A stretch of 43,878 nucleotides of DNA, taken from the IMG/VR virus record IMGVR_UViG_3300024520_000147, positions 1-43,878 of that record; one strand, 5' to 3'. Of the stretch, positions 3,407-24,223 are shown one piece after another (the stretch's first letter is position 1; each line of letters starts with the position of its first letter). Below the pieces are notes generated by a model, which saw only the letters and a program-made list of their open reading frames with translations, did no database searches and had not been told where the DNA came from. Source of the stretch: a virus. Both the position numbers and the translations under genes were made by a program.

Positions 3407-4237
3407 TCACACCCCACACATGCCTTCGCACTCGTTCTCAAACCAGTTGATCTCGGTCTGGCCCTCGCCCCGGAACTTCACCTCGCGGAGAGGGACGCAG
3501 GAGTTATGCACGAATTGCTGCCCGATTAAGCCACGCGGGTTGATGAGGGCCATATTCCGGATCAGTTCGTCGACCTCTACCGCCTTCTCGAAATCGCTTG
3601 GATGGTTGTCCCGTAGATTCATCCACTCCCTGTCTGAGTGGAACGGACAGAATGTACAGGCAGATTTCTGCGGCTCGGGTAACCCAGCCTCGACGACAAT
3701 CCGATAGCAGTCGTTCCGATACATCCTCAAGTCGATGAGCGGCCAAGTGTGGGTACACCACTTCTCTCTCGACGGCTTCATGCGGGTTGCCTCGTCCATG
3801 CTGATGCCGATCTGGGCGATGGCGCGGCGCTTGACCCGTTGCCGAAACTTTAACCCCATTGCCCGCCGCACTTCCTGAATAATCGGCTCAATCTTGAATT
3901 CGTGTGTGCATTGCCGCCTCGTAAGGCCCTTTTCCCCGTTGGGGGAAATGGTGTAGACGGGGATTGATACGAATGTCTTCCCGGCTAACGCGATGTTTTT
4001 GAAGTTCTCCGACAGCGAGATTCCTGTCTTGTGTCGCGTCACCCGAATCGGGATCTCCGACCACTCCTTCAAGATCTCCAGGTAGTCGTAGACGTACTGC
4101 GGTTCGTCGCCCGTGTCCGCGAACACCGCGAACTCAGGTCGTGGAATCTTCCCTTGGTTCGCCAGCACGAGCATCGCCGTGGACTGGACCCCCGCCCCGA
4201 GGCTCATATAGATCAGAGGCTCGCCCTCGTACTTCAT
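3407..4237 (-). CDS. PP-loop ATP pyrophosphatase, PAPS reductase-like
   Basis: A 276-residue protein of the adenine-nucleotide alpha-hydrolase (PP-loop) superfamily. The N-terminus carries the SLGAGVQST loop (residues 12-20), then FADTGDEPQYVYDYL (about 39-53). Residues 106-119 hold TRRQCTHEFKIEPI, the region that in PAPS-reductase and DndC-like enzymes contacts the substrate, and CTFC lies at 194-197. Enzymes of this fold adenylate or reduce sulfonucleotides, or supply sulfur for nucleic-acid modification. GGAGGGG lies upstream of the ATG at 4237. It sits between the helicase loader and rusA, which hints at nucleic-acid modification rather than cysteine biosynthesis. The substrate is not known. 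Confidence 0.8.
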   Translation of the reverse strand: MKYEGEPLIYMSLGAGVQSTAMLVLANQGKIPRPEFAVFADTGDEPQYVYDYLEILKEWSEIPIRVTRHKTGISLSENFKNIALAGKTFVSIPVYTISPNGEKGLTRRQCTHEFKIEPIIQEVRRAMGLKFRQRVKRRAIAQIGISMDEATRMKPSREKWCTHTWPLIDLRMYRNDCYRIVVEAGLPEPQKSACTFCPFHSDREWMNLRDNHPSDFEKAVEVDELIRNMALINPRGLIGQQFVHNSCVPLREVKFRGEGQTEINWFENECEGMCGV

Positions 4238-16486: not shown

Positions 16487-18238
16487 ATGGCCCGCTCACT
16501 GACCATCGAAGCAGAGAAAAAGCGCCTGCGGCAACTCAATCGCTGCAAGAACGACCTATTTTACCTCGTGATGAACCTCGGGTACGGCTGGAACCCCAAG
16601 GCGCAACAGGGCGTCACCGAAGGGTTCCACGGGCCGCTGTGCCGCTGGGAAGACGAGAACAAGGACCACAAGAGAACCCTGATCCTGGCCCCCAGAAAGG
16701 GACTCAAGACCACCGTGTTCACTATCGGGTGGTGCATCCAGCAGTTGATGATCGACCCCGACACCACCATCGCCATCTTCCACTGGGCCGAGGAAGAGGC
16801 ACAGGCCATGATCAAGGAAATCGGCCACCACCTCCAGAACAACATCTTCCTGAAGCGTCTTGAGCCTATTGGCCAATACCCGCTCTGGATCAACGAAGAG
16901 AAGGGCATCGCGCACCCCAGCGCACTGGAGTACTACTCCATCCTGCCGGCGCACAACAACAAGAAGTTCATGTCCGCGTCCAAGCTCACCGTGGCTAACC
17001 GGCCCATGCTCAACCCCACCACCATGAGACAACCCTCCGTGGCCGCCAAGGGCGTCGGGTCCACCGCCACCGGGATGCACGTAGACAACATCATCCTGGA
17101 AGACATCATCGGGTACGAGACCACGCAGGAAGTCACCGGGATGGCCCGGGTGCGTGAGTGGGTGCGTGCCACCGTCACCAACGTGCTGAACAAGAACGGG
17201 CGTGTAAGGGCACGGGGGACGCGATGGGACGAACACGACGTATGGTCGGACTTTCTGAAATCCAAACAATGGAAGTGCATCGTCCGCGCTGCGATGGAGA
17301 CCGATGGACTCGCAGACGAAAATGGCGAACCCACGCACTACGGCCCCACCCCCGAAGGCGAAGACGGCATCGAAGCCGCCCTCGAGAGAGAAAAGCACGA
17401 ACTGCTTGAAATGGGACCGCGGATCTACTCTGCACAGAGACAGAATCAAGCCACCTCGCTCGCAGAAAGAGTCTGGGATGCGCGATCCTGCGAACACTAC
17501 ATCGACACCCTGAAAGAAGCGATGATGTACCCCGGGCGCACCTTCGTGCTATCTGACCCTGCCCCTGCAAAGGTTGGTTCTCAGGACATCACCAAGGAGA
17601 AATCGAGAGGAGACGCAACCAAGGACGACTGGGCGTTCGCTGTCGTGCGACTCCGAGTCAACAAGACCCTGCTCGAACTGGTGATTCTGTACCTCGAAGC
17701 CTCCAAGACGCTCGAGATCGATCAGGGGATGGACCTCGCATGCAATCTGATGCACAAGTTCGGGACGAATATGTGCTTCCATGAGGCTTACGGTGGGCTG
17801 ATTGCCGACTACACGCTCTCGATGAAGAACGCCGCGAAGAGGAACGGCGTGCGACTGTTCACCGAAGACGGGGTGCTGCCTCAGTACACGAACTCTTACG
17901 CCACCGGGGCGAAGAACATCAGAATCAAAACCTTTGCGGATTGGGCGCGTGACATGCGCGTGTACGTCTGTCGTGAAACTGTACCTCCACTGATGCTGGA
18001 GTCTGAAGACGGCGGCACCGGCATGCGTGGCCTGTGGGAACAGGCGCGTCCTTTCCGCATCGTCGGCAAAGGAAACAACCTCAAGTACGATGACGTGATC
18101 GACGTGTGCGCGAGAGCCACCGATCCGAAGCTGAGAGAGTACTCCCCGCAAGTGGAGTCGATGGCAGACAAGATGGAAGAGTTCTGGGGAGAGACTGAAG
18201 AATCTGAGATGCCAAGAACGGCCAACTTGGGGTGGTGA
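16487..18238 (+). CDS. terL: terminase large subunit
   Basis: A 583-residue packaging ATPase-nuclease that drives DNA into proheads and cuts concatemers. The Walker A-like loop is LILAPRKGLKTT (residues 65-76) and the Walker B with catalytic glutamate is NIILED (about 198-203). The C-terminal RNase H-like nuclease begins with VLSDPA (about 353-358), whose aspartate is a likely metal ligand, and further acidic residues follow. Length is normal. It starts 1 nt after the previous stop. In most tailed phages the portal gene comes next; here six genes intervene. Confidence 0.93.
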   Translation: MARSLTIEAEKKRLRQLNRCKNDLFYLVMNLGYGWNPKAQQGVTEGFHGPLCRWEDENKDHKRTLILAPRKGLKTTVFTIGWCIQQLMIDPDTTIAIFHWAEEEAQAMIKEIGHHLQNNIFLKRLEPIGQYPLWINEEKGIAHPSALEYYSILPAHNNKKFMSASKLTVANRPMLNPTTMRQPSVAAKGVGSTATGMHVDNIILEDIIGYETTQEVTGMARVREWVRATVTNVLNKNGRVRARGTRWDEHDVWSDFLKSKQWKCIVRAAMETDGLADENGEPTHYGPTPEGEDGIEAALEREKHELLEMGPRIYSAQRQNQATSLAERVWDARSCEHYIDTLKEAMMYPGRTFVLSDPAPAKVGSQDITKEKSRGDATKDDWAFAVVRLRVNKTLLELVILYLEASKTLEIDQGMDLACNLMHKFGTNMCFHEAYGGLIADYTLSMKNAAKRNGVRLFTEDGVLPQYTNSYATGAKNIRIKTFADWARDMRVYVCRETVPPLMLESEDGGTGMRGLWEQARPFRIVGKGNNLKYDDVIDVCARATDPKLREYSPQVESMADKMEEFWGETEESEMPRTANLGW

Positions 18239-18240
18239 AC

Positions 18241-19101
18241 ATGGATCTGACCGTGGTGATGACCGTCTACAACCGACCGTATATGGTGCTGATGAACACG
18301 TTCATCGCGCTCGCCCGGGCGCTGAAACCCGGGTGCAAGGTCCTCGTGATCGACGACGGTTCCGATAAGGACTTCATGCGGGACTACAAGGAGATCCGCT
18401 CCATCGTCGAGGAGTGGGGTGTGCCGCTGGAGTGGAAGCGCATCTCGACTTCAAATGATCGGCCAGAGACGTACCACATCGACGGGCACAACAACCCAGC
18501 CTACGTCAACAACCGGGCGCTGGAGATGACCGACACGGAAGACCTCTGCTGGCTCTCCAGCGATTGCATCGTCCCGCCGAACGCATTCGAGGTGATCGAA
18601 AAGTACGACCTATCGACGACCGTGGTCACCACCCGCGTGATCGACCTGGACACCGCGGCGGTCTTCCTCGGGGCCTCGCGACTGTTCCCGATGTGCTGGT
18701 TCCTGACGATGAAGACTGCGCACTGCCGAGAGATCGGTGGGTTCGACGAAGAGTTCATCAAGGGCATGGCCTACGAGGATAACGACTTTGCCGGAAGACT
18801 GTGCCTGCATGTGGGGAAACTCGCCATCGACCAGTCCGCGACCGTGTGGCACCAGTCCCACCCGCCCGCGGCGTACTCGGACGACCTCGTCGGATTCAAG
18901 AAGAGTGGGGCGTACACCTCGGAGCGATGGTCTGGGCACGCCCCGTTCAACGGGAAAGAAGTCCCGGTGGCCTTCAAGTCCAATGCGGTTGGGAACGTCG
19001 TGTTCCTGACGGAGTTCAAGTATACAGGAGGACACGACAGTGCCCCGCAACTACAAGCCCAAGAGGCCGGTGTTGTCGGTTCTGATCACGGCGCTACCTG
19101 A
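18241..19101 (+). CDS. family-2 glycosyltransferase A
   Basis: A 286-residue GT-A fold protein. LTVVMTVYNRPYMVLMNTF and VLVIDDGSD (D38-D39) form the nucleotide-sugar site. LCWLSSDCIVPPNAFEVIEK replaces the usual DDD segment, and GGFDEEFIKGMAYEDNDFAGR holds the catalytic acidic region. I chose the ATG at 18241 because GGGGTGG lies 5 nt upstream. Such enzymes transfer a sugar from a nucleotide donor; the acceptor is unknown. It is the first gene of a six-gene modification cassette between terminase and portal and overlaps the next gene by 62 nt. Confidence 0.85.
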   Translation: MDLTVVMTVYNRPYMVLMNTFIALARALKPGCKVLVIDDGSDKDFMRDYKEIRSIVEEWGVPLEWKRISTSNDRPETYHIDGHNNPAYVNNRALEMTDTEDLCWLSSDCIVPPNAFEVIEKYDLSTTVVTTRVIDLDTAAVFLGASRLFPMCWFLTMKTAHCREIGGFDEEFIKGMAYEDNDFAGRLCLHVGKLAIDQSATVWHQSHPPAAYSDDLVGFKKSGAYTSERWSGHAPFNGKEVPVAFKSNAVGNVVFLTEFKYTGGHDSAPQLQAQEAGVVGSDHGAT

Positions 19102-19654
19102 GCGTGGAGAACTCCTCGGGGGTCTCGTTGACGGCCTAATCGAACAGATAGGTGATGGGCCAGTCGAGGTGCTGTGCCTTATTGACAACAGGAAACGCTC
19201 GACAGGATCTAAGCGGAATGCACTTTTGGGGGTTGCCGCCGGGAAGTGGACTACGTTCATCGACGATGACGACCTCGTGTCGAACGACTATGTGGACACG
19301 CTGCTCGCGGAGATCAAGAAGGCCGGGAACGCGAAAGACGTGATCACGTTTCACTCCGTTCTGGTGAAGGCTGGCGCAGTCGTTGAGCGGCACGAGTTCA
19401 GCCTCACGAATTGCAAGCTAGGCACCGGGGCAAAGAGCGTTGACGAGGCCGGCGTGCCCGTATCCTTAAGGATCGTTCCCATTCATATGTGCTGGAGGCG
19501 GTCTGTAGCAATGAAGGTCCCGTTCGTTGATAGTTGTCATGGTGAAGATTGGGTTTGGGCCGCGGAGATGGTCGAGGTTGTGGGCCCATCGAGGCAAGTG
19601 AACCTCGACAAGTCGATGTACTTCTACATGCAAGACGAACTGAAGGCCGTGTGA
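19040..19654 (+). CDS. family-2 glycosyltransferase B
   Basis: A 204-residue protein from a GTG start with AGGAGG. After a basic N-terminus, VLSVLITALPERG begins a short GT-A domain. KRNALLGVAAGKWTTFIDDDD (D75-D78) holds the donor-binding DxD. HGEDWVWAAEM near the C-terminus looks like the ED(W) catalytic motif. It is shorter than glycosyltransferase A and lies out of frame inside its 3' end. It probably acts with the neighbouring transferases and methyltransferase on one glycan or modified group. Confidence 0.8.
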   Translation: MPRNYKPKRPVLSVLITALPERGELLGGLVDGLIEQIGDGPVEVLCLIDNRKRSTGSKRNALLGVAAGKWTTFIDDDDLVSNDYVDTLLAEIKKAGNAKDVITFHSVLVKAGAVVERHEFSLTNCKLGTGAKSVDEAGVPVSLRIVPIHMCWRRSVAMKVPFVDSCHGEDWVWAAEMVEVVGPSRQVNLDKSMYFYMQDELKAV

Positions 19655-20154
19655 TGCCGCGACTCGAGAAGATACACAACGGTGGGTATGTGTCCCCAGA
19701 TGACCCCGGAGAGATCGGAACGGACAAGGCCCCTCGTGGAGGCGTGAGCGATGCCGAGGCTGGGATACTCGCTGCCTTGGTTCGCGGGAAAAGGGTGTTG
19801 GAGATCGGGACAGGGCTAGGGGTCGCGACTCGGCAAATGCAACAAACGGCCCTATCACTCACCACCGTGGACATCGACCCGTGGGTTGCGGAGGCTGTCG
19901 CCCCTGAACTCGCTGCGTTGGGGGTCACCACGCTCTCTAGCCTCCCGCAAGAAGAGAAGTACCAGTTCTTTTTCGTAGATGGCGACCACACCGCAGAGGC
20001 CGTCGCCAAGGATTACGGGTGGTGCGTCGAACACGCCGACTCTCCGGCAATGATCGTTATCCACGATTACACGCACATCCCCCACGTCCGAGACTCGGTT
20101 CCCGGTCTGTTCATCATAGACACCGAGTTCGGACTCGGGGTGGGGGTTATATGA
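19654..20154 (+). CDS. class I SAM-dependent methyltransferase
   Basis: A 166-residue Rossmann-fold methyltransferase. Motif I is VLEIGTGLG (48-56), the acidic end of strand 2 is TVDIDPW (D73), and FFFVDGDH (105-112) followed by IVIHDYTH resembles the MTase_24 group, small-molecule or sugar methyltransferases often found in glycan clusters. The ATG overlaps the stop of glycosyltransferase B, and the stop overlaps the radical SAM start. O-methylation of a sugar is the likeliest role, by context only. Confidence 0.8.
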   Translation: MPRLEKIHNGGYVSPDDPGEIGTDKAPRGGVSDAEAGILAALVRGKRVLEIGTGLGVATRQMQQTALSLTTVDIDPWVAEAVAPELAALGVTTLSSLPQEEKYQFFFVDGDHTAEAVAKDYGWCVEHADSPAMIVIHDYTHIPHVRDSVPGLFIIDTEFGLGVGVI

Positions 20155-21254
20155 GCGTACCAATGAAGACTGCCTACTCCGACCTCAAGGCTGCGTACCA
20201 CACAGGATGCATCGACAGCCTGCGGAACACGGGCCGATGTCTACCGCCGCACGTTCAGTTGATCATCTCCGACCTGTGCAACCACGACTGCTCGTTCTGC
20301 GCCTATCGGATGTCCGGGTACACCTCGAATCAGAACTTCGGGGAGGCCAGAGAAGACGGCACGGTGAACAACAACCCGAATCGTCGTTGGCCCTTCAAAA
20401 AGGCGCTGGAGATCCTCGACGACTGCGACCAACTCGGAGTCAAGGCGGTCCAGTTCACCGGGGGCGGGGAACCCACCGCGCACAAGAACCACATCAAGAT
20501 CTTTTCCCGTGCGCTGGAACTCGGGTTCAAGTGCGCTCTGGTGACCAACGGGTCGAAGCTCGCTGACGGGTGGGAGAAGGTCTACCCGAAGTTTAGTTGG
20601 ATGCGGGTGTCGCTCGACGCGGGCACTCCGGAGACCTATGCGGCGATCCGCAGGGTCAGACCCTCTCAATTCCAGAAGACTTTGGAAAACATCAGCCGGT
20701 TGGATGATGCCGGGTGCCTAGTTGGGGTGTCGTTCATCGTCACGAAGGATAACTGGCATGAGATCTATGAGGCATACGAAGCAGTCCGCGTAGCAGGAGC
20801 CTCGTCTATCCGATACGGGGCAATTTTCACCCCGAAAGGTTCCGCGTACTACGACGAGTCTGGATTGAAGACGAAGATCTCCAGTCTCATCGGCATGGCG
20901 GTCGCCAACGCGAAAGGACAGGAATTTCAGGTTATTGACCAGTTCTCCCACCGTCTCGATGACCTCGACGATGGACAGCCGGATTACCCCATATGCGGGT
21001 ATCAGCATTTCAACATGTATATTGGTGGTGACCTGAAGGTCTACCGCTGCTGCAACACGGCCTACAATGACCTGGGGCTGATAGGAGACCTGAACGATGG
21101 CAAAACGCTCCTCGACTGGTGGGATTCCGACGAGGCGGAGGCGGCGTACACTCGGTTCTCGCCCCGCGCCTGCGAACGCTGCGCCTTCAACCGGCAGAAC
21201 CGCGTCATCAACTACCTTGCCGGTCCCGAAGATCCCCACGTTGACTTCGTCTGA
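20151..21254 (+). CDS. radical SAM enzyme with SPASM/twitch-like C-terminus
   Basis: A 367-residue protein. The 4Fe-4S and AdoMet motif is SDLCNHDCSFCAYR, CxxxCxxC at C43, C47 and C50, followed by QFTGGGEPT (about 101-109) for AdoMet binding. The C-terminus has CGYQHFNMYIGGDLKVYRCC (about 282-300) and ACERC (about 341-345), the cysteine layout of SPASM or twitch domains that hold extra clusters in enzymes modifying peptides, sugars or alcohols. I start at 20151 (ATGA overlap, purine-rich site). Substrate unknown; flanking glycosyltransferases suggest a sugar or a protein side chain. Confidence 0.85.
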   Translation: MSVPMKTAYSDLKAAYHTGCIDSLRNTGRCLPPHVQLIISDLCNHDCSFCAYRMSGYTSNQNFGEAREDGTVNNNPNRRWPFKKALEILDDCDQLGVKAVQFTGGGEPTAHKNHIKIFSRALELGFKCALVTNGSKLADGWEKVYPKFSWMRVSLDAGTPETYAAIRRVRPSQFQKTLENISRLDDAGCLVGVSFIVTKDNWHEIYEAYEAVRVAGASSIRYGAIFTPKGSAYYDESGLKTKISSLIGMAVANAKGQEFQVIDQFSHRLDDLDDGQPDYPICGYQHFNMYIGGDLKVYRCCNTAYNDLGLIGDLNDGKTLLDWWDSDEAEAAYTRFSPRACERCAFNRQNRVINYLAGPEDPHVDFV

Positions 21255-21453
21255 CAAGGAACTCACCGAAGCACTGGTTGACGCCGCGAAGACGATGGGC
21301 CATGCCGTGATCCAGTACGGCTGGGGCGAGAACTGCTGGAGTTACCGGTGCGTGAACTGCGGGATGACCGCGGGGTGCGCCCACTACCCACCGCCGAACA
21401 GTCCGAAGATCTCCGGAGACGCCGTGAAGAAGAAGTGCCCGGAGGCGAACTGA
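21241..21453 (+). CDS. small zinc-finger-like protein
   Basis: A 70-residue protein. The best start I can find is TTG at 21241, inside the end of the radical SAM gene. CVNCGMTAGCAHY and a later KKKC could form one metal site. The stop overlaps the next ATG. The frame is open upstream to 21097 but there would overlap the SAM gene in low-complexity sequence. It may be a partner protein for the neighbouring enzymes. The start is uncertain. Confidence 0.5.
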   Translation: MTSSDKELTEALVDAAKTMGHAVIQYGWGENCWSYRCVNCGMTAGCAHYPPPNSPKISGDAVKKKCPEAN

Positions 21454-22415
21454 TGGAGGCCACCACGTACAAGATCACCGACGATGGCAAAGTCGAAGGA
21501 CTCGGGGAGATCTCCATCCCGAACCAGTCCACGGTGACCAACGACGACTTCGACCCCGAGTCCGTACTGATCCAAGTCCTACGGAGACCCACCGACCCGC
21601 TGAATAAGATGCTCGAGGAGTCCTTGTACTCCTGGGTGGCGGCGGGGATCGCCGTGCAACCGCTACGGGACGCCTTCGGCGGGTGGATCGACGTATCCCG
21701 CAACTGGCAGTCGTGGATGTTCCGGAAGTCCCCGCGAAAGTTCAAGTACCAGTTGATCATCGACAACGACGTGGGCGCTCCGGTGGACATTCCGATGAGA
21801 CTCGCCCGCCATGATCTCCCCATCGTCAGCGCAGTCGTCCCTGCGTTCAACACCGAGAAGAAGCTCTTCGCGTGCATCGCGGTGAAGGGCAAGGACGGCA
21901 GGGCACGCTTCCCGACGCTGAACACCACGAAGGTCATGCCTGCCGAGGGACTCGTCGAAGTCCACAACTGCGGCACCGGATGCGTGATGGTCCGAAGAGA
22001 CGTGGTTGAGTCCATGTGGGAGAAGCACGAGAGCGAGAAGGCACGCATGGCGAAGGCCCAGGCCGGCGTCATGGCCCTGATCGCAGGAGAGGAGATCGAC
22101 CCGGATGAGCGCAAGGAGGTCATGTACCTCCTGCGGAACTGGGACTACGTCCACAACGAGCTTGGAGCGCCGTTCAGCATCCCGCAGTCGCTACGGGATG
22201 AAGCGGCGAAGACGGGAGTGATGCCGAGAGGGGAAGATATCTGTTTCACTGACCGGGCGCGTTCGCTCGGTTACAAGGTCTACGCGGATCTGTCCGCTCG
22301 CTGCGTCCACGACGCGACGATGACGCTCGCGTGGCCCCCTGAAGCCCTCGATCACTCTTTGAGCGTTGAAGACTGGATGGTCTCGGCGTTCGACCCGCCC
22401 GTTACGGAGGTATAG
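21453..22415 (+). CDS. glycosyltransferase-like protein C
   Basis: A 320-residue protein with GT-A-like features. YQLIIDNDVGAPVD (DND at 104-106) is a metal and nucleotide-sugar DxD. EVHNCGTGCVMVRRDVVE (169-186) and PRGEDICFTDRARSLGYKVY followed by CVHD match the acceptor and catalytic region of phage glycosyltransferases with a GED..F...a...G..v.. pattern. A helical insertion (about 186-235) is less typical. GGAGGCG lies before the ATG at 21453. It ends the modification cassette, 2 nt before the portal gene. Confidence 0.65.
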   Translation: MEATTYKITDDGKVEGLGEISIPNQSTVTNDDFDPESVLIQVLRRPTDPLNKMLEESLYSWVAAGIAVQPLRDAFGGWIDVSRNWQSWMFRKSPRKFKYQLIIDNDVGAPVDIPMRLARHDLPIVSAVVPAFNTEKKLFACIAVKGKDGRARFPTLNTTKVMPAEGLVEVHNCGTGCVMVRRDVVESMWEKHESEKARMAKAQAGVMALIAGEEIDPDERKEVMYLLRNWDYVHNELGAPFSIPQSLRDEAAKTGVMPRGEDICFTDRARSLGYKVYADLSARCVHDATMTLAWPPEALDHSLSVEDWMVSAFDPPVTEV

Positions 22416-22417
22416 TC

Positions 22418-24223
22418 ATGGCGTTCGCGAAGGAAGAAGAAGCGCGGTGGGTGATGTCGTTCATCGAACACTCCGCAAAGTACAGGGACGACTTCGAGCA
22501 TATCTGGCAGGTCACCCTCGAAAATTACCTTGTCAGGCGCGATGTCTTCAACGCGAACCAGCAGGTCAAGTACCCATACCTCGACAACAGAGAGATCACT
22601 CGCTCGACCACCGGGGCCGCACGGCTCAAGGACCCCGAGTCGCATCAGATCGTCGAGACGCTCGTGGCGAACGAGATGCTCCAGTTGTTCGGCACCGATG
22701 ACACGTTCGTTCGCGCTACTCCGGTGGGGTACGAGGATGCCTCCGCAGCCCGTACTGTCTCTGGCCTCACGCGCCACTGGATGCGATTGCCGGGGCACCA
22801 CTGCACGTTCCACAAGTGGTTCAAGGACGAGAAGATCTTCGGTACGGGCATTGTAGAGGGGTCGTGGCACTACGAGACCCGCCCCGACGCGCTCACCGCG
22901 GTGGATGACGTGTACGGCGTACCAGAGCCGCAGGAGGTCATCACGGAGTTACCGTGGTGGGACGACTACAGGCTACGCTGCGTGGACCTGTTCGACTTCT
23001 ATCCCGAACCTGGTAAGGAGTCCATCTCGGACATGCGCGGGGTCGCGAAGCGGTTCATGACCACGAAGATGGAGGCCGAGGCCAACCCTCGGTACGACCA
23101 GGCCGCAGTCGCCAAGGCAGTCCTCAACAAGAACGTCACAGATGGACGTGAACGCGAGGAGAAGTCGTGGCGCGAGGGCATGGACAGATCGTTAGTCGAG
23201 AAGGCCCCGGACGAATGGACCCCTCTGATCGGGTACGTGTTCTACGGTAGGGTGCCGTACAAACACCCGGACGGTGAGACATGGCGTAGAGTTGAGGTCA
23301 TTGCCGGGGAGGTCGTGAGAAGTGAAAGGCACGTAGGGCGTATCCCGTTCTTCGAGACCACGATGTCGCCCATCCAGGGCCGGTTCTACGGATTGTCACC
23401 GCTGGAGGTGATGATCTACACCCAGGACTTCGTGGATGGCCTGTTGATGCTTCTCGCGGATGCATCCGCTCGAGCGACTCACCCGTCTCCCATGGTTGAC
23501 CGCAACGCAAACGTGGACACGGCGAAGCTCAAGAAGCAGCGGTACGGTCTGCCGATCATGACCGACCGGCCCAACGCTGTGGAGTACCTACGGTACGATC
23601 CTCCGCTCGCGCCGGCGATGAACGTCTTCTCGTCCCTGAAGGGGCAGATGAGAGAGGGAGGAGGCGTCTCAGGGGCCTTTCAGGGGCTTGGGCTAGGGGT
23701 GGACCGTGCGTCCGCTACGGAGGCCGCAGGGACCATGCAGCAGGCCAAGGGACGCCCCGAGGCCAATGTGATGCTCAAGGAGCGGGAGTACCTCCCGCCC
23801 ATCGCCCAACACGCCCTGAAGCAGTATCAGCGGTTCCTGCTTGATGGGGAGGGCCTCGCGAAGCGTATCGGTGTGATGCCCGAACCGGTGCCGCTGGAGA
23901 CGATCCACGGGGAATACGACATCGAGTTCATTGGCTCTCGGCAGCAGGGGAACAAGTCGGAGCGCATCCAGGGTTACCGGGAACTTTTCTCCCTGGCGGC
24001 GCTCCCGATGGTCGGTCCGTATCCGCCGTGGCAGGAGATCATTGTCAGGTTCATGAAGGAATTTGGACTGCACGAGGAGGCCCAGTCCTCGCAGATGACC
24101 ATCATGCAGAACCTGTTGATGCAGCAGATCCAGAATCAAGAGTTCGGAAACGGTAACGGGGAGACACCTCGTAACCCGGGCGCTCTGCCAGCAGAGCAAA
24201 CGGCTGGGGGCGTAATTGGCTGA
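22418..24223 (+). CDS. portal protein
   Basis: A 601-residue protein of the size and character of podovirus portal (head-tail connector) proteins. It has an N-terminal helical region (FIEHSAKYRDDFEHIWQVTL), a strand-rich wing with conserved tryptophans (LPWWDDYRLRCVDLFDFYPE), GRVPYKHPDGETWRRVEVIAG, and PFFETTMSPIQGRFYGLSPL before a helical C-terminus. Twelve copies would form the DNA channel at one vertex. GGAGGT lies before the ATG at 22418. Identification rests on position (before scaffold and capsid) and overall pattern. Confidence 0.75.
   Translation: MAFAKEEEARWVMSFIEHSAKYRDDFEHIWQVTLENYLVRRDVFNANQQVKYPYLDNREITRSTTGAARLKDPESHQIVETLVANEMLQLFGTDDTFVRATPVGYEDASAARTVSGLTRHWMRLPGHHCTFHKWFKDEKIFGTGIVEGSWHYETRPDALTAVDDVYGVPEPQEVITELPWWDDYRLRCVDLFDFYPEPGKESISDMRGVAKRFMTTKMEAEANPRYDQAAVAKAVLNKNVTDGREREEKSWREGMDRSLVEKAPDEWTPLIGYVFYGRVPYKHPDGETWRRVEVIAGEVVRSERHVGRIPFFETTMSPIQGRFYGLSPLEVMIYTQDFVDGLLMLLADASARATHPSPMVDRNANVDTAKLKKQRYGLPIMTDRPNAVEYLRYDPPLAPAMNVFSSLKGQMREGGGVSGAFQGLGLGVDRASATEAAGTMQQAKGRPEANVMLKEREYLPPIAQHALKQYQRFLLDGEGLAKRIGVMPEPVPLETIHGEYDIEFIGSRQQGNKSERIQGYRELFSLAALPMVGPYPPWQEIIVRFMKEFGLHEEAQSSQMTIMQNLLMQQIQNQEFGNGNGETPRNPGALPAEQTAGGVIG

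Follow-up and report, generated by a model that had tools for sequence, protein, structure and literature searches.

The window analysed here is the whole of the IMG/VR virus record IMGVR_UViG_3300024520_000147 (43,878 bp), in which six open reading frames (ORFs) on the same strand, overlapping or abutting, lie between the terminase large subunit gene (terL) and an SU10-type portal gene. Four of them encode two glycosyltransferases (GTs), GTA and GTB, a methyltransferase (MT) and a radical S-adenosylmethionine (SAM) enzyme (rSAM). The rSAM belongs to a previously undescribed family that is widespread in viruses and nearly restricted to them in the collections searched. We lean slightly towards the reading that GTA-GTB-MT-rSAM is a late cassette for building an O-methylated glycan and tailoring it by radical chemistry, with virion proteins as the most likely acceptor. 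A methylated, radically modified glycan had already been suggested from inspection of the DNA without database searches (the sequence-only reading); it stays the best reading, with the rSAM chemistry and the acceptor inferred.

Linkage of the rSAM to GTs and MTs was evaluated at 62 distinct viral rSAM loci, near-copies (85%) having been removed. A single home-made gene finder supplied the neighbouring genes, which were then labelled using profiles of recurrent neighbour clusters; these profiles were trained on the neighbours of an earlier subset, all positions were scored alike, IMG/VR contigs are fragments, and the gene calls are approximate. GT profiles matched 33% of the genes at ±1, 16% at ±2 and 14% at ±3, the share falling to about 3% from ±8 onwards, and MT profiles matched 16% of the genes at ±1 and almost none past ±4. 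A GT was adjacent to the rSAM at 34 of the 62 loci versus 9.2 expected (2,000 permutations, maximum 18), and an MT at 20 versus 2.7 expected (permutation maximum 9). In a separate Pfam count, PF00535 was present in 29/118 genes at ±1 versus 3/118 at ±8/9. The order MT-rSAM-GT recurred, and the large non-GT genes around the rSAM belonged chiefly to the major head protein (major capsid), terminase and portal families. The enrichment of GTs and MTs next to the rSAM, far above the permutations, indicates that the cassette genes are not unlinked passengers, a possibility that the sequence-only reading had raised against its own proposal of a functional linkage.

Using the window protein and then alignments as queries, we found many full-length rSAM relatives in viral contigs at 36-48% identity. 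The cellular search covered 84,980 species of bacteria and archaea, each represented by one genome. The first scan of these genomes gave no match, and a scan with a broader alignment gave 24 loci, nine of which fell within the family (L067-L075, two from one genome); the remaining loci lay outside it at 23-30% identity. In a tree of 76 rSAM sequences the viral members and eight genome-contig members formed one group (support 98/86), apart from the other cellular sequences, of which there were ten; nine of these were separate from the group, and L088, on a long branch, was outside both. The few cellular relatives and the viral grouping in the tree together indicate that the family is nearly virus-restricted in these collections. 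The genome-contig members were dispersed among the viral ones, and L073 was the one clear phage among the nine, as judged by structural genes. Two planctomycete rSAM-GT2 pairs, in a Rhodopirellula metagenome-assembled genome (L068:3624-5650) and in Laterigemmans baculatus (L070:9983-11815), were 41-54% identical to the pair of viral L035 and are perhaps captures from phages. Radical SAM genes and glycosyltransferases have been noted separately in marine phages (PMC7029224, PMC7150976). The sequence-only reading knew of no described phage system with this combination; the combination recurs widely in genomes, and no paper describing a linked rSAM and GT cassette or this rSAM family was found in the searchable, partial literature.

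The rSAM gene (20151..21254, +; PF04055 2.3e-18) encodes 367 aa. The CxxxCxxC motif (C43, C47, C50) and a TGG.EP motif were invariant in 28 aligned members, and the cluster motif, the GGE motif, the fold and the PF04055 match place the protein in the radical SAM superfamily. C282, C300, C301, C341 and C344 were also invariant in the 28 members, which fits one auxiliary cluster. The protein had been called SPASM/twitch-type; since there is one predicted auxiliary cluster site and the score against PF13186 (SPASM) was 14 bits, under the 21.5 cut-off, "twitch-like" seems the better label for its C-terminal domain. The AlphaFold2 model (predicted local distance difference test, pLDDT, 92) was closest among solved folds to SkfB (Z 26.6), BlsE (Z 24.8), DesII (Z 23.6) and SuiB (Z 23.1). 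By sequence profile among solved structures BlsE ranked first (1.9e-14), followed by SkfB, MoaA and DesII (1.9e-08). BlsE is known to remove the carboxyl group from the cytosylglucuronate sugar (PMC3715490).

Three rSAM homologues (L005:6015-8036, L057:8837-11014 and L125:9992-11551; 673, 725 and 519 aa, respectively) carry large in-frame insertions inside CxxxCxxC. These start at Cys and finish with ...HN or ...SN directly before Cys, those of L057 and L125 are alike, and they are probable inteins.

Two family-2 GTs and a class I MT had been named from the translations, and profile searches bore this out. GTA (18241..19101, +) is a GT2/GT-A enzyme matching PF10111 (7.6e-08) and PF00535 (9.2e-06). 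Its subfamily was seen in viral contigs only at the window, L004 (35% identity) and L023 (34%), in the latter two also near an rSAM. GTB (19040..19654, +), a short GT2 enzyme, matched PF00535 and the glycosyltransferase families phrog_8858 (9.2e-25) and phrog_14775, and its closest solved relative was GalT1 (PDB 5hea, 3.4e-11). Its best matches among named phages were glycosyltransferases in 46 records of phages that infect Mycobacterium or Gordonia, including gp108 of Che8 (34% identity over 193 aa, 1e-24). The MT (19654..20154, +) is O-methyltransferase-like, with matches to PF13578 (Methyltransf_24, 3.5e-10) and the O-methyltransferase PDB 6jcl (3.6e-4) and 41% identity to the MT of L004. 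No transmembrane segment was found in any cassette protein (maximum 19-residue hydropathy 1.45), and all are predicted to be soluble.

On the favoured reading, the cassette genes would be translated in coupling with terL and the portal gene during virion production, a late timing that we infer from their position. The two soluble GT-A enzymes would attach at least one sugar to an acceptor, for which Ser/Thr or another side chain in a protein of the capsid or tail is most likely; this acceptor is suggested by the homology of GTB to Che8 gp108 and by the recurrent placement of the genes among head genes. The MT, judging from its family, would O-methylate a sugar hydroxyl. The rSAM would cleave SAM to give a 5'-deoxyadenosyl radical, abstract hydrogen from a sugar carbon, either in a nucleotide sugar or in the glycan once attached, and then epimerise, dehydrate, oxidise or decarboxylate the sugar, as BlsE and DesII act on theirs. 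The particle would thereby gain a sugar coat of an uncommon kind, changing its recognition or stability, presumably to the benefit of the phage. In a separate examination, Ser/Thr-rich C-terminal tails were considered as glycosylation sites and rejected, as the capsid tail was not notable.

Several observations weigh against this reading. At 12 of the 62 rSAM loci no profile-matched GT was found within five genes. SkfB and SuiB are peptide maturases, and structurally they are as near to the rSAM as BlsE and DesII, so that fold alone cannot tell a sugar from a peptide substrate. The window MT and the methyltransferase domain of gp108 are alike at the Pfam level only, a direct profile match not being significant, and the Che8 glycosylation genes lie at the genome end and not amid head genes. 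Furthermore, the glycan product is a prediction from the genes, and a glycan of the host might be the acceptor instead. The gp108 homology, the solubility of the proteins and the lack of a base-hydroxylating gene in the window proteins scanned make a virion protein the likeliest acceptor, followed in order by the host surface, a peptide and DNA.

The cassette might instead alter the host surface (lipopolysaccharide, teichoic acid, capsule) or its precursors during infection and so block superinfection, which we regard as unlikely but as the strongest competitor. Marine phage GT clusters have been interpreted in this way (PMC7029224), and at some of the related loci there are, in addition, genes for epimerases and further sugar-building enzymes. 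The distant cellular rSAM relatives L076 and L077, outside the viral group, lie among polysaccharide, GT and sugar-acid genes as judged from translations; these surroundings support a sugar substrate for the rSAM and also suit a host-surface role. However, profile searches of the cassette found no match to GtrA or GtrB, the flippase and membrane-anchored bactoprenol GT of GtrABC serotype conversion, none of its proteins has a transmembrane segment by hydropathy, its genes sit among head genes, and GTB is nearest to the mycobacteriophage capsid-glycosylation GTs.

It is improbable that the rSAM modifies a peptide or virion protein directly, by epimerisation or cross-linking as in SkfB, SuiB or EpeE, while the GTs and MT act on that target or on a different one. 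SkfB is its top structural match, SuiB is close and some SPASM/twitch enzymes act on peptides; but the 367-aa model starts with two short helices and has no N-terminal peptide-recognition domain, the recurrent partners of the rSAM are GTs, and its closest solved sequence is a sugar enzyme. Small Cys-rich ORFs, the only kind included in a test for precursors of ribosomally synthesised and post-translationally modified peptides (RiPPs), were neither conserved nor enriched beside the rSAM. The peptide target that the sequence-only reading had offered as an option is therefore disfavoured. Hypermodification of phage DNA with glycosylated, methylated bases is very improbable: phage GT clusters can glycosylate DNA, according to literature cited in PMC12619734, but the scan of the window proteins (some small early ORFs fell outside it) gave no hydroxymethylase, no thymidylate-synthase-like protein and no TET enzyme, so that there would be no hydroxylated base to build on, and DNA-modification genes were not among the recurrent rSAM neighbours. 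That the rSAM is a viperin-like nucleotide enzyme for phage-phage competition, with incidental GT genes, is the most improbable of all, for although the viperin family gave the best NCBIfam match by E-value (2.1e-18), the score against the viperin equivalog NF038283 was 66.5 bits where 180 is the cut-off, an additional C-terminal domain with a predicted cluster is present in the rSAM, and the permutation result contradicts the idea that the GTs are incidental.

Returning to virion glycosylation, a wider claim can be put forward tentatively, at somewhat less than even confidence: across many unrelated tailed phages the virus-restricted rSAM family may edit GT-attached virion sugars by epimerisation, deoxygenation or decarboxylation and give sugars absent from the host, a general and undescribed phage trait. 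Virion glycosylation of the window phage predicts mass shifts on capsid or tail proteins. If true, it would add radical enzymology to the modification of virus particles, provide new sugar-editing enzymes and bear on the recognition of phage particles. The rSAM family can serve as a marker by which cassettes for tailored glycans may be recognised in the sequences of many uncultured phages.

The layout of the locus confirmed that the six ORFs are real and tightly coupled. As first read from the DNA, they separate terL (16487..18238, +; phrog_38 4.2e-36) from the portal gene (22418..24223, +; PF23899, SU10_portal, 8.7e-25), and the ORF coordinates, interlocked starts and stops and profiles agree with this and support a place inside a late gene block. 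GTA begins 2 nt past the terL stop. GTB has a GTG start with a strong AGGAGG Shine-Dalgarno sequence 8 nt upstream and a 62-nt overlap with GTA; TGATG overlaps form the GTB/MT junction and that between the small Cys-rich protein gene (21241..21453, +) and p1574 (21453..22415, +), and the MT/rSAM junction is an ATGA overlap. The G+C content of the cassette (0.589) did not differ from that of the window (0.595), and a foreign origin by this measure was rejected. Scans for tRNA and Rfam families found none. Against named phages terL gave weak matches to cyanophages, to an archaeal virus and to an oyster-associated phage, at 22.9-26.6% identity, GTA, MT and p1574 gave none, and the portal query had no match in viral contigs or named phages. 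In the early region of the window, a gene at 3407-4237 (-) encodes a protein that has a PAPS-reductase domain and weakly matches the Radical_SAM profile, and further genes encode RusA, ERF, a DUF3799 nuclease and an HNH endonuclease.

The gene set varied among relatives. In L004, MT-GTA-rSAM (41, 35 and 44% identity to the window) lies directly upstream of a terL outside the window's terL cluster. L023, a relative, has the order terL-GTA-MT-GT-rSAM-p1574-portal, with MT and second GT from other families, and in L003 the stretch from terL to the presumed portal gene contains GT, rSAM, GT and further genes. In L033 and L066, terL, p1574 and portal are akin to those of the window, and the glycan cassette is elsewhere on the opposite strand. 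This variation indicates that the core of the cassette is rSAM plus GT, with or without an MT. The window's terL likewise has relatives in L023, L033 and L066, and p1574 relatives adjoin the portal gene in all three; since L033 and L066 keep p1574 at the terL-portal site with the cassette elsewhere, p1574 is part of the backbone and the cassette a movable set. The six genes, which it had been proposed to seek as a block in other phages, were rejected as one conserved unit, p1574 being independent and the small Cys-rich protein unique to the window.

The protein p1574 matched phrog_1574 (unknown function, 5.4e-12) and had been listed as a third GT-like protein. No GT family match was found by sequence, but the core of a model built from a nine-sequence alignment (pLDDT 72) had a GT-A fold, with many GT-A enzymes at Z 13-18, the nearest being STIV A197 (Z 17.8 over 169 residues) and the LH3 GT domain (Z 17.3). 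An ID-N/D-D motif resembling the DXD metal motif was conserved. These data support p1574 as a putative glycosyltransferase at the fold level only; encoded beside the portal gene, it may add further GT activity separate from the cassette. Longer p1574-like GT-A proteins with a methyltransferase-looking C-terminal part were seen near tail genes in other phages (L140, L143, L145).

The remaining ORF, earlier called a zinc-finger peptide, is real and encodes a Cys-rich, zinc-ribbon-like protein of 70 aa, but it had no Pfam or PHROG match, and a comparison with the 2,402 ORFs of related loci gave no relative. Its sole start codon is TTG, making it the weakest of the six gene calls. Having no relatives and no enrichment, it was rejected as the rSAM substrate.

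To our knowledge, phage virion glycosylation is experimentally known in few systems. The cassette is most likely a form of this known process, its novelty being the widespread virus-specific rSAM partner. PMC11256854 describes glycans covalently attached to the major capsid protein of Che8 and Rita, and according to PMC12619734 the glycans of mycobacteriophages are located on capsid and tail-tube subunits, at the C-terminus; for Che8, Freeman et al. 2023 is the source cited by both. As in the Che8 system (gp108-110), the window encodes soluble GTs, GTB is homologous to the GT domain of gp108, and a GT is coupled to a Methyltransf_24 methyltransferase, by fusion in Che8 and by overlapping genes in the window. 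Che8 gp108 itself (L131:3980-5155), annotated as a glycosyltransferase only, is a GT2-methyltransferase fusion (PF00535 plus PF13578, Methyltransf_24/TylF, macrocin O-methyltransferase). In contrast to the window, no radical SAM enzyme is annotated among Che8 genes 94-112, and the second GT of Che8 is unlike the window's.

The sugar-acting enzymes BlsE and DesII share the radical SAM barrel and C-terminal domain with the rSAM, and BlsE is its top profile match, but identity is about 21%, the rSAM is a phage gene, and its 50.2 bits against the BlsE equivalog TIGR04466 are far under the cut-off of 400. The RiPP maturases SkfB and SuiB have the same overall fold, whereas the rSAM is without their recognition domain and a search of small Cys-rich ORFs gave no precursor peptide gene. 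STIV A197, the archaeal virus protein that was the top fold match of p1574, shares little sequence identity with it (18%). The window cassette also differs from GtrABC serotype conversion, having no match to a membrane flippase or membrane-anchored GT. A parallel in a named phage is podophage ctQWt234 (MW202801), in which a distant rSAM of the same family (full-length match, hhalign 100%; 24-25% identity) lies beside GTs and an MT inside the virion gene block, in the order major capsid protein (MCP)-rSAM-GT-PhyH-MT-NodB-GT-tail (MW202801.1 19640-24303 = L132:8001-12664). There the cassette follows the MCP gene and has a PhyH dioxygenase and a NodB-like deacetylase in addition, so that this complete phage genome carries a richer sugar-tailoring cassette than the window.

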